Part shown: positions 5,809-58,119 of the stretch, one piece after another
Layout of the letters: each line of letters begins with the position of its first letter
How positions within the stretch are numbered: the first letter of the stretch is position 1
Source of the DNA: Candidatus Jettenia sp.
GTDB taxonomy: Bacteria; Planctomycetota; Brocadiia; Brocadiales; Brocadiaceae
Direction of reading: 5' to 3'
Length of the DNA: 64,000 bases
Assembly (NCBI GenBank): GCA_021650895.1
Contig: CP091278.1
Location: 1,455,659 to 1,519,658 of the forward strand
Notes under the pieces: generated by a model
Database searches by the model: none
What the model was told of the DNA's origin: nothing
The model's input: the letters and a program-made list of their open reading frames with translations, nothing else
Position numbers and translations under genes: made by a program

Positions 5809-5939
5809 AGGGGCAGGTTTCAAACCTGTCTCTACCCACAAAAAATGAAATCAATGTAGGGCAAGGCTTTAGCCTTGCCTTCCCTGCCTGAATGTGCACG
5901 GGGAGCACCTAAGGGTTGCCCTGCGGAATTGAAATTCCT
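5809..5939. repeat. Dispersed repeat family A, copy 1
   Basis: A GGGGCAGGTTTCAAACCTGTC hairpin comes first. Then follows the family core: TGTAGGGCAAGGCTTTAGCC TTGCC, a short spacer with CCTGAATGTGCACGGG, then GGGTTGCCCTGCGGAATTG and AAATTCCT. Seven copies sit in intergenic gaps of this window. Each half can form a hairpin. Confidence 0.8.
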
Positions 5940-6017: not shown

Positions 6018-6932
6018 ATGGCTGAAACGAGAAAGATCCACAAAGTCTTGAAAAGTAAACCTACAATCGAAGGAGCTGGCGTCCATCTTAAACGGGCGTT
6101 CGGACATAGCCAGGTTCCGATGTTTGATCCTTTTTTGCTGCTGGACGACTTTCACTCAGACAATCCGATGCACTATATTAAGGGCTTTCCATGGCACCCG
6201 CATCGCGGAATTGAGACAATCACCTATGTTCTCTGTGGAGATGTAGAACACGGCGACAGCATGGGAAATAAGGGTATTATATCCTCTGGTGATGTACAAT
6301 GGATGACCGCCGGAAGTGGGATCATACATCAGGAAATGCCCAAAGGAGACCCTGATGGTCTGATGTTCGGATTTCAACTTTGGGCCAATCTTCCTAAATC
6401 CCATAAAATGACGGAGCCTCGCTACCGGGATGTGAAAAGTAATCAAATCCCGGAGGCAGTGCTGGAGAACGGCACAAAAATCAGGATTATATGCGGAAAA
6501 GTGAATGGTAAGCAAGGACCTGTTCGGGACATCATCATCGATCCGGAATACATCGATGTAACAGTTCCTGCCCGATCGGAATTCACCCATCCCACCAAGC
6601 GCGGCCACACCGTTTTCGCATATGTCATCGAGGGTAAGGGGTACTTCTGCAAGGAGAAGAATCCGTTTTCTTATGAGATTGAAGGAACCAATTATTTTGA
6701 TATTCAGAGAGACCCCTTTATAAGCAATAAAACCCTCGTCCTATTTGATGATGGCGATCAGATGATGGTCTCAACAGAAGACGATGCTATCAGGTTCCTG
6801 CTCATATCGGGTAAGCCTATTGTTGAACCGGTCGCATGGTATGGCCCTATTGTAATGAATACGGAAGATGAACTACGGATTGCCTTTGAAGAGTATTCCA
6901 ATGGTACATTCATCAAGCACAAGAGAGCTTAA
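6018..6932 (+). CDS. Pirin family protein
   Basis: 304 residues, a typical pirin length. The cupin N-domain carries FPWHPHRGIETITYVLCG and DVQWMTAGSGIIHQEMP, with the metal-binding His/His/His/Glu set (HPHRG, and H..E in IHQE). The C-terminal pirin_C cupin includes VIEGKGYF and LLISGKPI..PVAWYGPIVMNT. Bacterial pirins include quercetinase-type dioxygenases and redox-sensing regulators; which applies is not evident. An AAGGAG site precedes the ATG. It is flanked on both sides by family A repeats, so it is probably monocistronic. Confidence 0.92.
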   Translation: MAETRKIHKVLKSKPTIEGAGVHLKRAFGHSQVPMFDPFLLLDDFHSDNPMHYIKGFPWHPHRGIETITYVLCGDVEHGDSMGNKGIISSGDVQWMTAGSGIIHQEMPKGDPDGLMFGFQLWANLPKSHKMTEPRYRDVKSNQIPEAVLENGTKIRIICGKVNGKQGPVRDIIIDPEYIDVTVPARSEFTHPTKRGHTVFAYVIEGKGYFCKEKNPFSYEIEGTNYFDIQRDPFISNKTLVLFDDGDQMMVSTEDDAIRFLLISGKPIVEPVAWYGPIVMNTEDELRIAFEEYSNGTFIKHKRA

Positions 6933-6989: not shown

Positions 6990-7085
6990 TGTAGGGCAAG
7001 GCTTTAGCCTTGCTCCCCGCCTGAATACATACACGAGGATAGCACCCTAAGGGGTTGCCTGGCAAGGCTAAAGCCTTGCCCTACA
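6990..7085. repeat. Dispersed repeat family A, copy 2
   Basis: GTAGGGCAAGGCTTTAGCC TTGCTCCCCGCC, then CCTAAGGGGTTGCC followed by GGCAAGGCTAAAGCCTTGCCC TAC. The outer arms are inverted copies of each other, so the whole unit can fold into one long hairpin. It lies downstream of the pirin gene. Confidence 0.8.
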
Positions 7086-7280: not shown

Positions 7281-7847
7281 ATGAGTAGAGAAAAAATGGT
7301 TACTATTTTAGGTTTTGCGGGAAGCTTACGGAAAGAATCTTACAATAAATCGATCTTACAAGCTGCCCTGGAGCTTCTTCCGGAAGATGCCAAACTTGAA
7401 ATCTTCGATCTTGAAGGAATTCCCCTATTTAGTCAGGACTTGGAAAATCAATTCCCGGATAAGGTTAAGCAATTCAAGGCAAAAATCAGGGCTGCCGATG
7501 CTATTCTTATTGCTTCTCCGGAATATAATTACTCAATACCAGGCGTCCTGAAAAACGCAATTGACTGCGCTTCCAGGCCATACGGAGATAATGCCTTCGA
7601 TGGTAAACCGGTAGCGGTAATGGGTGCTTCTATCGGAATGACGGGAACGGCAAGGGCACAATATCATCTCAGGCAGAGCTTCGTTTTCCTCAACATGCAT
7701 CCCATAAATCAGCCGGAGGTTATGGTCCCGTTTGCTCATGAAAAAATTGACAAAAACGGAAAGGTGACCGATCAAAAAACAAGGGAAAAAATTAAGGAGC
7801 TCATTGAAAGTCTGGTCGCCTGGACGAAAAGACTTAAACAGAGTTGA
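7281..7847 (+). CDS. NADPH-dependent FMN reductase (flavodoxin-like)
   Basis: 188 residues with the FMN-reductase signature of the ChrR/YieF/azoreductase type. The FMN phosphate loop is GFAGSLRKESYNKSIL and the second flavin-binding block is SPEYNYSIPGVLKNAIDCAS. A GASIGMTGTARAQYHLRQ segment follows, as is usual in the family. It is likely a cytosolic quinone, chromate or azo reductase using NAD(P)H. A strong AAAGGAG lies upstream of the ATG. It stands alone among repeats. Confidence 0.92.
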   Translation: MSREKMVTILGFAGSLRKESYNKSILQAALELLPEDAKLEIFDLEGIPLFSQDLENQFPDKVKQFKAKIRAADAILIASPEYNYSIPGVLKNAIDCASRPYGDNAFDGKPVAVMGASIGMTGTARAQYHLRQSFVFLNMHPINQPEVMVPFAHEKIDKNGKVTDQKTREKIKELIESLVAWTKRLKQS

Positions 7848-8013: not shown

Positions 8014-8071
8014 TGGTAGGATGGATTCAGCGGAGCGAATCCACCATAGCATCTTTTCAGACAGCCTCTAA
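8014..8071. repeat. Dispersed repeat family C, copy 1
   Basis: GGTAGGATGGATTCAGCGGA with GCGAATCCACCATAGCATCT, then TTTCAGACAGCCTCTAA. A second copy is at 9611-9663. GGATTC..GAATCC gives a small hairpin. Each copy lies shortly after a redox or hydrolase gene. Confidence 0.65.
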
Positions 8072-8180
8072 GGTTGCTTCTGTGAAAATCGATAAGATAC
8101 TTTATCAAATGGTTTCAGGGACCATTCGGTTCTTGTGGGATGTACTCATTAATAACATTACTATTTAAGGAGGCATTACT

Positions 8181-8750
8181 ATGGAAAATAAAATTACATG
8201 GGAATCGCAGATGGATGCTGCTCTATCAAAAGCACGGTCTGAGAGAAAGCCGGTATTACTCGATTTTTTTAATCCGGGCTGAATCGGCTGTCAGCAGATG
8301 GATACGGTCTCGTATCCTGAGAAAAAAGTTAATGAATTCATTACCACTTCTTTAATTCCACTGCGTGTACGCTCTGATACTCAACCTATTGCTACTAATT
8401 TTAACTTGAAATGGACCCCAACCCTTATTGTCCTTGATACAGAAGGTAAGGAACATCACAGGTCAATAGGTTTTCTTTCTCCCGAAGAGCTAATTCCTTC
8501 ATTACTACTGGGAATAGCAAAGGTACATTTTGATTTGAATGAATTTAAGGAAGCACTTTCAAAATTGGAAAAGGTTTTATCTGATTTCCCTGAAAGTAGT
8601 TCAGCGCCGGAAGCAATGTATTTAAGAGGTGTGTGTTTATACAAAAGCACAAATAACCCAAAGGGACTCAAGGATGCCTACGAACAACTCCAAAGCAAGT
8701 ATCCTGAGAGCGAGTGGACAAAGCGGGCATATCCCTATCGGCTTCTGTAG
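8181..8750 (+). CDS. Thioredoxin-like/TPR protein with in-frame UGA: candidate selenoprotein (UxxC)
   Basis: Reading from ATG 8181, which has AAGGAGG at 8167-8173, codon 34 is TGA (8280-8282). The frame then continues to 8750, giving 189 residues. The thioredoxin strand VLLDFFNPG leads straight into UGA-I-G-C, exactly where thioredoxins have CxxC, so the UGA replaces the first catalytic Cys. A later segment, LKWTPTLIVLDTEGKEHHRSI, holds the thioredoxin cis-Pro. Residues ~115-189 form a TPR-like region (ALSKLEKVLSDFPES, AMYLRGVCLYK). A perfect 7-bp hairpin with a GUCU loop follows the UGA. The alternative is a Cys-to-stop nonsense mutation. No selenium-incorporation genes lie in the window. 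Confidence 0.7.
8300..8317 (+). promoter_or_regulatory. Candidate bacterial SECIS hairpin
   Basis: GGATACG-GTCT-CGTATCC pairs perfectly over 7 bp. The loop begins 24 bases after the UGA ends. E. coli fdhF has a GGUCU motif at its apical loop and bacterial SECIS elements usually lie within about 16-37 bases of the UGA. Here the same GGUCU string (8306-8310) sits at the top of the stem. This is seen by eye; no folding program was run. Confidence 0.65.
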
Positions 8751-8783: not shown

Positions 8784-8912
8784 TTAGCAGTAGAGGCAGG
8801 TTTAAAACTTGCCCCTACTCATAAAACAGAGGATGTAGGGCGAGGCTTTAGCCTTGCAAAGGGCGCAAACCTAAAGGTTTGCCCTACAGAATTGAATTTC
8901 CTAACGCCACTT
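8784..8912. repeat. Dispersed repeat family A, copy 4
   Basis: It begins with an AGAGGCAGGTTTAAAACTTG CCCCTAC hairpin, as in copy 1. GTAGGGCGAGGCTTTAGCC follows, then GCAAACCTAAAGGTTTGCCC TACAGAATTGAATTTCCT. It fills the gap between the candidate selenoprotein gene and the isochorismatase gene. Confidence 0.8.
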
Positions 8913-8957: not shown

Positions 8958-9590
8958 ATGAATACAAAATATACTTACCGTCGTCTCTCTAAGGACAACG
9001 CTGCCGTTCTCCTTATTGACCATCAATCCGGCCTTGTCAACCTTGTGCAGGACTATTCGCCGAACGAATTCAGGAACAACATCCTCGCTCTGGCTGACCT
9101 TGCCAAATACTTCAAGCTGCCGACCATCCTGACGACCAGCTTTGAAGAAGGTCCCAACGGTCCAATCGTGCCGGAAATTAAGGAAATTCACCCGGAAGCT
9201 ACCTACATTCCACGTCCTGGCCAGATTAATGCCTGGGACAACGAAGACTTCGTGAAGGCTATCAAGACCACTGGACGCAAACAGTTGCTCATAGCCGGTG
9301 TCCTGACTGAGGTTTGTGTGGCCTTCCCAGCACTTTCTGCACTAGAGGAAGGCTTCGAGGTCTTCGTTGTTACTGATGCTTCCGGAACCTTCAACGAGGC
9401 CACGCGCTACGCCGCTTGGACGCGTATGGCGGCTGCAGGCGTTCAGTTAATGAACTGGATGGCTGTTGCCAGCGAATTGCATCGTGACTGGCGAAAAGAC
9501 ATCGAGGGGTTGGGCAAACTGTTATCCAGCCATCTGCCTGCTTACAGAAACCTGATTACAAGCTACTCGGCAAAAAGACCTGTGACCTAA
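8958..9590 (+). CDS. Isochorismatase-family cysteine hydrolase (YcaC-like)
   Basis: 210 residues from ATG 8958, which has AAAGGAG eight bases upstream; the frame is open further 5', but that region is repeat DNA. Family motifs are the catalytic Asp in VLLIDHQSGLV and the nucleophile Cys in LIAGVLTEVCVAFPA. VVTDASGTFNEATRYAAWTR is also typical of YcaC-like hydrolases. The substrate is unknown. Codon third positions look visibly more GC-rich than in its neighbours, which hints at acquisition from outside. The gene sits alone between repeats of families A and C. Confidence 0.9.
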   Translation: MNTKYTYRRLSKDNAAVLLIDHQSGLVNLVQDYSPNEFRNNILALADLAKYFKLPTILTTSFEEGPNGPIVPEIKEIHPEATYIPRPGQINAWDNEDFVKAIKTTGRKQLLIAGVLTEVCVAFPALSALEEGFEVFVVTDASGTFNEATRYAAWTRMAAAGVQLMNWMAVASELHRDWRKDIEGLGKLLSSHLPAYRNLITSYSAKRPVT

Positions 9591-9610: not shown

Positions 9611-9663
9611 GTGATGGATTCAGCAGAGCGAATCCATCATAGCATCTTTTCAGGCAGTCTCTA
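9611..9663. repeat. Dispersed repeat family C, copy 2
   Basis: GTGATGGATTCAGCAGAGCG AATCCATCATAGCATC, then TTTTCAGGCAGTCTCTAA. It closely matches the copy at 8014-8071. Confidence 0.65.
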
Positions 9664-10620: not shown

Positions 10621-10668
10621 GGGCAAACCTTTGGTGTTGCCTGTCAAGGCTAAAGCCTCGCCCTACAT
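10621..10668. repeat. Family A repeat fragment (copy 5)
   Basis: GGGCAAACCTTTGGTGTTGCC then CAAGGCTAAAGCCTCGCCC TACATCGAC. It directly abuts the right end of the MITE, so the MITE may have landed next to or in this repeat. Confidence 0.65.
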
Positions 10669-25146: not shown

Positions 25147-25485
25147 CTAAATAGCCTTTTCTCCCCTCTCACCGGTTCTGATACGGATAGCATCTTCGAT
25201 AGTGCTAATAAAAATTTTTCCGTCCCCTATACTGCCTGTTGCGGCCTCCCGTAAGATACATTTAATGATGTCTTTAACATCCTTATCCGGAACCACCATT
25301 TCCATCTGTATTTTGTTTACAAAATCAGTCTTAAAAGTCCTGCCACGCCATTGCTCGGTAATGCCCTTTTGACTGCCGTGTCCTTTTACCTCAGTAACCG
25401 TCATCCCCGGATATCCAATATCTAACAAAGCATCTTTTATTACAGCAAACTTCTCTTCCCGCACAATCGCTATAATCTTTTTCAT
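25147..25485 (-). CDS. PII nitrogen-regulatory protein (GlnB/GlnK family)
   Basis: 112 residues, standard PII length. It shows the MKKIIAIVREEKFAVIKDAL start, the T-loop region (KGHGSQKGITEQWRGRTFK) and the C-terminal GDGKIFISTIEDAIRIRTGE. The position that in E. coli GlnB is the uridylylated Tyr51 (YRGAEY) reads WRGRTF here, so covalent uridylylation is unlikely. Sensing would then be by ATP/ADP/2-oxoglutarate alone. No amtB or glnA is adjacent, so the partner is unknown. Confidence 0.93.
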   Translation of the reverse strand: MKKIIAIVREEKFAVIKDALLDIGYPGMTVTEVKGHGSQKGITEQWRGRTFKTDFVNKIQMEMVVPDKDVKDIIKCILREAATGSIGDGKIFISTIEDAIRIRTGERGEKAI

Positions 25486-27546: not shown

Positions 27547-27638
27547 ATGTAGGGCAAGGCTTTAGCCTTGCTTCCCCGCCAGAATATGTAATCAGGGGGA
27601 GCAAACCTAAAGGTTTGCCCTACAGAATTGAATTTCCT
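27547..27638. repeat. Dispersed repeat family A, copy 6
   Basis: TGTAGGGCAAGGCTTTAGCC TTGCTTCCCCGCCAGAATATG, then GCAAACCTAAAGGTTTGCCC TACAGAATTGAATTTCCT. It is a full-length unit lying between nnrD and larB. Confidence 0.8.
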
Positions 27639-58029: not shown

Positions 58030-58119
58030 TGTAGGGCAAGGCTTTAGCCTTGCTCCCCCACCAGAATATATGCCCGGGATAGCAACCCTGAAGGGTTGCC
58101 CTACAGAATTTAAATTCCT
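58030..58119. repeat. Dispersed repeat family A, copy 7
   Basis: GTAGGGCAAGGCTTTAGCC TTGCTCCCCCACCAGAATATA, then GCAACCCTGAAGGGTTGCCC TACAGAATTTAAATTCCT. A full unit inserted between the barrel gene and the next exported protein gene. Confidence 0.8.

Follow-up and report, generated by a model that had tools for sequence, protein, structure and literature searches.

A predicted thioredoxin-TPR selenoprotein with a UxxC active site in Candidatus Jettenia and related bacteria

The frame at positions 8181-8750 of the window (the 64-kb stretch of Candidatus Jettenia DNA analysed here) is very likely a functional selenoprotein gene, a reading to which we assign a probability of about 0.96. Its predicted product joins a thioredoxin-fold domain bearing a UxxC active site to a short C-terminal TPR half (Table 1). 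This reading is carried by a recoding signature, by the selenocysteine (Sec) machinery of the genome, by purifying selection, and by the joint loss of the UGA and a downstream hairpin in forms with cysteine (Cys), all of which can be read from the sequences compared. A selenoprotein had already been proposed in the initial annotation of this DNA; each contrary sign named there that is accessible to sequence comparison was sought, and none was found.

The interrupted frame and the selenocysteine machinery

Retranslation agrees with the initial annotation that the frame is broken by one TGA only. With this TGA translated as Sec, U34 is the single interruption of a 189-aa frame and lies in the context FNPG-U-IGC, that is, on the first Cys of the thioredoxin CxxC, where it had been placed. 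The ribosome-binding site described as well placed was likewise located upstream of the start codon. Scans for promoters and terminators near the gene gave no match.

Table 1. Features of the predicted selenoprotein gene, its surroundings and related loci of the same genome. Positions are those of the window unless a contig (G000:C1) is named.
Feature	Position	Strand	Basis
Predicted selenoprotein gene, 189 codons with UGA as Sec; stop TAG 8748-8750	8181-8750	+	sequence, homologues, dN/dS
Ribosome-binding site AAGGAGG, 7-nt spacer before ATG 8181	8167-8173	+	sequence
UGA codon 34, predicted Sec, UxxC active-site position 1	8280-8282	+	sequence, homologue alignments
Resolving Cys37 (TGT) in U-I-G-C, invariant in A2 alignment	8289-8291	+	alignment
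Predicted bacterial SECIS hairpin, stem GGATACG/CGTATCC, loop GTCT (8307-8310)	8300-8317	+	folding, homologue pairing
Thioredoxin-fold domain, residues 1-105, conserved WTP	8181-8495	+	Pfam, phmmer, alignment, Foldseek, AlphaFold model
C-terminal TPR-type helices, residues ~106-183	8496-8729	+	Pfam, model, structure comparison
Pirin family protein, near gene in 11/13 family loci	6018-6932	+	neighbour comparison
NADPH-dependent FMN reductase, three Jettenia loci only	7281-7847	+	neighbour comparison
Isochorismatase-family hydrolase, 9/13 family loci	8958-9590	+	neighbour comparison
GGCAAGGCTAAAGCCTTGCCC copies	5859-5880, 6994-7015, 7060-7081, 8838-8858, 10643-10663, 27552-27572, 58034-58055	palindromic	sequence
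selD with in-frame TGA (L018)	G000:C1:2198205-2199131	-	sequence search
UGA paralogue L055 (group B), SPTUAGC, signal-like N-terminus, same hairpin	G000:C1:3562290-3562829		sequence
UGA paralogue L056 (group C), MIGUASC, signal-like N-terminus, same hairpin	G000:C1:2279953-2280492		sequence

The window genome, which belongs to an anammox bacterium and is a single contig of 3.82 Mb, 99.9% complete, holds the full set of Sec genes that the initial annotation had proposed to look for: tRNA-Sec (67.8 bits; called SeC by ARAGORN, with anticodon TCA), selA (536 bits), selB adjoining it (394 bits), and selD (359 bits). The selD gene has one in-frame TGA, in the N-terminal motif TCGGU-AGK, and SelD is probably itself a selenoprotein. 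A thioredoxin reductase is also encoded (371 bits). Across the genomes of the family, those without SelA are mostly also without the UxxC family (table 22/2/3/6, Fisher p = 0.0017, with two partial SelA matches counted as present). The gene is present and selA undetected in two assemblies, G001 (84% complete) and G013 (510 contigs), where the missing selA probably reflects assembly gaps. These observations bear on the idea that another suppressor inserts Trp or Cys at the UGA, for which no supporting point was found. It is opposed by the dedicated tRNA-Sec, SelA, SelB and SelD, by the distribution of the gene relative to SelA, and by the fact that Cys forms come without the hairpin; we consider it highly improbable.

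Elsewhere in the 64-kb window, a search for other Sec-type frames with a single TGA returned weak candidates only, with no supporting context. One of them, at 25370, overlaps an ordinary ORF on the opposite strand.

The hairpin downstream of the UGA

The hairpin GGATACG-GTCT-CGTATCC has a stem that starts 17 nt, and a loop that starts 24 nt, past the TGA; the perfect 7-bp hairpin of the initial annotation, given there as 24 bases downstream, is thus recovered, with 24 as the distance to the loop. Its GGUCU apex, presumably akin to that of E. coli fdhF, had been singled out as well; it is restricted to the Jettenia sequences plus a handful of others, CGUGAC being the commonest loop. The consensus for bacterial SECIS elements comprises a loop of 3-9 nt with a G within its first two positions, a stem of 4-16 bp, a distance of 16-37 nt from UGA to apical loop, and a minimum free energy of at most -7.5 kcal/mol (PMC13188914, Fig 2A legend). 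The Jettenia hairpin lies within each of these limits, with a 4-nt loop, G at loop position 1, a 7-bp stem and a distance of 24 nt; folding of 51 nt gives this stem as the structure of lowest energy (-13 kcal/mol), and the value for 34 nt is -9.8.

Taken alone, the fold energy is modestly unusual (z = -1.9, with 9/200 shuffles equally good) and not decisive, and covariation and the contrast between Sec and Cys forms were therefore used instead. All six stem pairs form in 95/102 distinct UGA forms and in 0/28 distinct Cys forms (Fisher p = 3e-22, a value that is descriptive only, because related sequences are not independent). It is this conservation, rather than the energy, that excludes a chance origin of the hairpin. 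Pairing reaches 0.96 in register. Sliding the 3' side lowers it to 0.58 at most, and shuffling the letters of that side to a mean of 0.90 (maximum 0.92). Compensatory pairs are found among the UGA forms (A-T/G-C, T-A/A-T/C-G and C-G/G-C), and the stem occurs as GGATAC/GTATCC, GGGTAC/GTACCC, GGAAAC/GTTTCC, GGGAGC/GTTCCC, GGACAC/GTGTCC and GGCCAAG/CTTGGCC. A G occupies loop position 1 or 2 in 101/102 UGA forms. The hairpin is absent in this register from 7/102 UGA forms, most of which fold other local stems. A synonymous-site profile of the gene, where conservation is only mildly raised from the hairpin region onward, was given no weight in the conclusion.

The contrast is also seen within the order Geobacterales, in which 18 UGA forms pair at 6/6 positions and 12 Cys forms at 4/6 at most, within a nearly identical surrounding peptide. 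This order constitutes an unusually clean natural experiment, the UGA and hairpin being lost jointly on the change from Sec to Cys, and natural variants therefore allow the minimal SECIS code to be read.

Homologues with selenocysteine and with cysteine

Within the same family (Brocadiaceae), 41 UxxC homologues were found in 33 genomes, and all have TGA at the active-site position. They fall into group A (13 orthologues, NPGUIGC), group B (PTUT/AGC) and group C (IGUASC and variants), and the window genome encodes one of each, the window gene representing group A. No signal peptide is seen by eye in group A, whereas a hydrophobic, signal-like stretch is present at the N-terminus of group B and of most of group C; the two paralogues of the window genome probably serve the same function outside the cytosol. 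Homologues on plasmids or phages were searched for, and none was found.

Downstream of the TGA, group A shows dN/dS of 0.03-0.19 at dS of 0.18-2.9, dS exceeding 1 for all orthologues from other genera. Purifying selection therefore acts on the downstream half, and the UGA has outlasted the saturation of silent sites. The initial annotation had named truncated homologues in close relatives as evidence that would count against it; these relatives keep the TGA yet conserve the whole downstream protein, and selection of this strength on it argues that their TGA is not a shared truncation.

The same data weigh on two readings in which the UGA is an ordinary stop. The first takes the frame for a pseudogene or the TGA for a sequencing error, the original Cys codon having mutated to a stop or been misread; in line with it, ordinary annotation would call only a 150-aa ORF from ATG 8298. 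It is contradicted by the recurrence of the same TGA in dozens of independently assembled genomes, by strong purifying selection on both sides of the TGA alongside saturated synonymous change, and by conservation of the hairpin among UGA forms, and it is refuted by orthologues that keep TGA and reading frame at 40-60% identity; we regard it as exceedingly improbable. The second supposes a gene in two pieces, with translation truly ending at the UGA and starting anew at this ATG (Met40), a residue that is indeed conserved in close orthologues. The codon is, however, mostly CTG or TTG in group B, the restart product would have neither the first strand nor the active site, and the covariation of UGA with hairpin and the existence of Cys versions would be left unexplained. 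This we find as hard to credit as the first.

Beyond the family, TGA is present in nearly all full-length homologues from the Planctomycetota (392 genomes sampled). TGA-bearing relatives of group A also occur outside the phylum, in Deltaproteobacteria, Syntrophaceae, Myxococcota and a Nitrospira (Nitrospirota), at 42-62% identity. Relatives in Geobacter, Geomonas and Citrifermentans have Cys at the same residue, which answers the question, raised in the initial annotation, of whether other species carry Cys at residue 34. In a tree of which several deep branches are weakly supported, the Cys forms of the Geobacteraceae make up a clade inside the Sec forms, a position suggesting that they arose by replacement of Sec with Cys. 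A homologue on a long branch from the same order as the window genome (L097, genome G385) has Cys (HHPLCSGCK) and no hairpin, and is a candidate for an independent replacement of the same kind.

Separately, distant thioredoxin proteins of other Planctomycetota (L175, L176, L177 and L182) were observed to combine a UGA with a similar GGATNC...GTATCC hairpin, some of them with different domain partners (e.g. YADWUGNC, LTDGUKFC), hinting that the thioredoxin-like selenoproteins of planctomycetes form a wider set.

Fold, relation to known proteins and proposed role

The protein matches Thioredoxin_2 (PF13098; 38.7 bits, cut-off 27) and also TPR_6 in Pfam, and its AlphaFold model (pLDDT 95.7, pTM 0.91) predicts a thioredoxin fold that extends to about residue 110, with TPR-type helices after it. 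The closest solved structure for the first half is a Bacteroides fragilis domain (3f9u; Z 13.6, rmsd 2.2, 119 aligned), with DsbD-gamma close to it (1vrs_E; Z 13.2, rmsd 2.0, 106 aligned). The second half aligns with BamD (5waq; Z 13.3, rmsd 2.0, 83 aligned), a Z that helical repeats easily reach. Position 34 and WTP 78-80 are, like Cys37, invariant in the A2 alignment; by analogy with thioredoxins, P80 sits in the usual position of the cis-Pro. Thioredoxins of the DsbD gamma and DsbH types share the fold and are the best relatives of residues 1-110 in sequence and structure, but they have Cys rather than Sec and no TPR half, and DsbD gamma, unlike the window protein, is a domain of a membrane protein.

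A 2004 paper is said to have been the first to list a 'thiol:disulfide interchange protein' among selenoproteins. This UxxC protein was catalogued in 2006 and 2026 from Geobacter metallireducens, G. uraniireducens and Syntrophus aciditrophicus (PMC1794560, PMC13188914), the later catalogue assigning it to PF13098 with WP_011366075.1, listed under G. metallireducens, as representative (PMC13188914). It shares with the family described here the domain PF13098, for which the window protein scores above the cut-off, and the UxxC motif, and UGA forms of the family were found in many Geobacterales genomes; by this taxonomic pattern, the deltaproteobacterial branch is probably the catalogued protein. 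The catalogues, by contrast, name neither a TPR half nor planctomycete or anammox members (PMC1794560, PMC13188914). The view of the initial annotation, which was not aware of a described selenoprotein with the UxxC-TPR layout in anammox bacteria, therefore needs qualifying: a UxxC selenoprotein of PF13098 was on record, while the TPR half and the planctomycete members are absent from that record. A literature search for selenoproteins combined with anammox, Brocadia, TPR or Planctomycetota yielded no description of the window protein, and the planctomycete expansion and the TPR half are apparently new as far as the literature was searched.

Other thioredoxin-fold selenoproteins gave weak matches, namely the VPGUxxT proteins (NF041383/NF041382) and TsoB (NF045694; 42.7 bits, cut-off 805), both of which differ in domain layout. 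Membership of the VPGUxxT family was rejected, as the score for NF041383 is 30.5 bits with a cut-off of 275 and the motif is absent, the window protein having NPGUIGC (UxxC). No curated NCBIfam model scores above its cut-off for the window protein, and a new model could therefore be built from the homologue alignments; no membership was found in PHROGs.

The gene neighbourhood offers some context. Besides the neighbours in Table 1, Brocadiaceae loci carry a WrbA-like FMN reductase (6/13) and an HtrA-like protease (6/13); the order varies between genera, and conservation of these neighbours does not extend beyond the family. Pirin, isochorismatase, FMN reductase and HtrA together suggest that the selenoprotein works in a quinone or oxidative-stress context.

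Several copies of the short palindromic repeat GGCAAGGCTAAAGCCTTGCCC flank the gene; genome-wide there are 144 forward and 156 reverse matches (<=2 mismatches), and 0 for a reversed-pattern control. Another dispersed sequence, GCGAATCCACCATAGCATCTTTTCAG, has copies on either side of the gene (8035-8060 and 9628-9653, 0-1 mismatch).

We infer the redox role (from knowledge of the family), the reductant, the function of the TPR half and the client proteins. The hairpin would direct SelB and tRNA-Sec to decode the UGA as Sec, giving a 189-aa protein that we lean towards regarding as a cytosolic seleno-disulfide reductase of thioredoxin fold, with the active site UIGC. The chemistry at residue 34 needs a thiol or selenol. 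By analogy with thioredoxins, Sec34 would attack a disulfide or oxidised thiol and Cys37 would resolve the selenenyl-sulfide, after which the genome's own thioredoxin reductase, or a comparable donor, would recharge the protein; the short TPR half is probably a docking site for clients or other protein partners.

Instead of a general reductase, the protein might be a chaperedoxin similar to CnoX/YbbN, a redox-active holdase that passes clients to chaperonins and in which Sec would confer resistance to over-oxidation. The order of domains, thioredoxin then TPR, is that of CnoX (PMC6282202), E. coli YbbN (3qou) ranks third in Foldseek (E 3.5e-7), and several Brocadiaceae orthologues have the HtrA-type protease gene nearby. 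Nevertheless, the model as a whole superposes poorly on YbbN (rmsd 11.9, TMq 0.43), phmmer matches are to DsbD-gamma and DsbH-type thioredoxins with YbbN absent, and the window protein differs in its shorter TPR part, its Sec active site and the lack of any detectable close sequence relation; the active site of E. coli CnoX is SxxC, and CnoX is not a reductase (PMC6282202). We thus regard a chaperedoxin role as doubtful and continue to favour the reductase.

As a tentative extension, at present unlikely in its entirety, the homologues may constitute a phylum-wide family of chaperedoxin-like thioredoxin-TPR proteins in Planctomycetota, almost always with Sec and rarely with Cys there, of which the anammox expansion would comprise one cytosolic and two exported forms. 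If this were true, selenium supply would be a determinant of redox protein repair in anammox bacteria. 

Independently of this extension, anammox bacteria, which matter for the nitrogen cycle and for wastewater treatment, very probably produce thioredoxin-like selenoproteins that automatic annotation would cut short or overlook, and a selenium requirement is predicted for some anammox genera, and not for those without selA.
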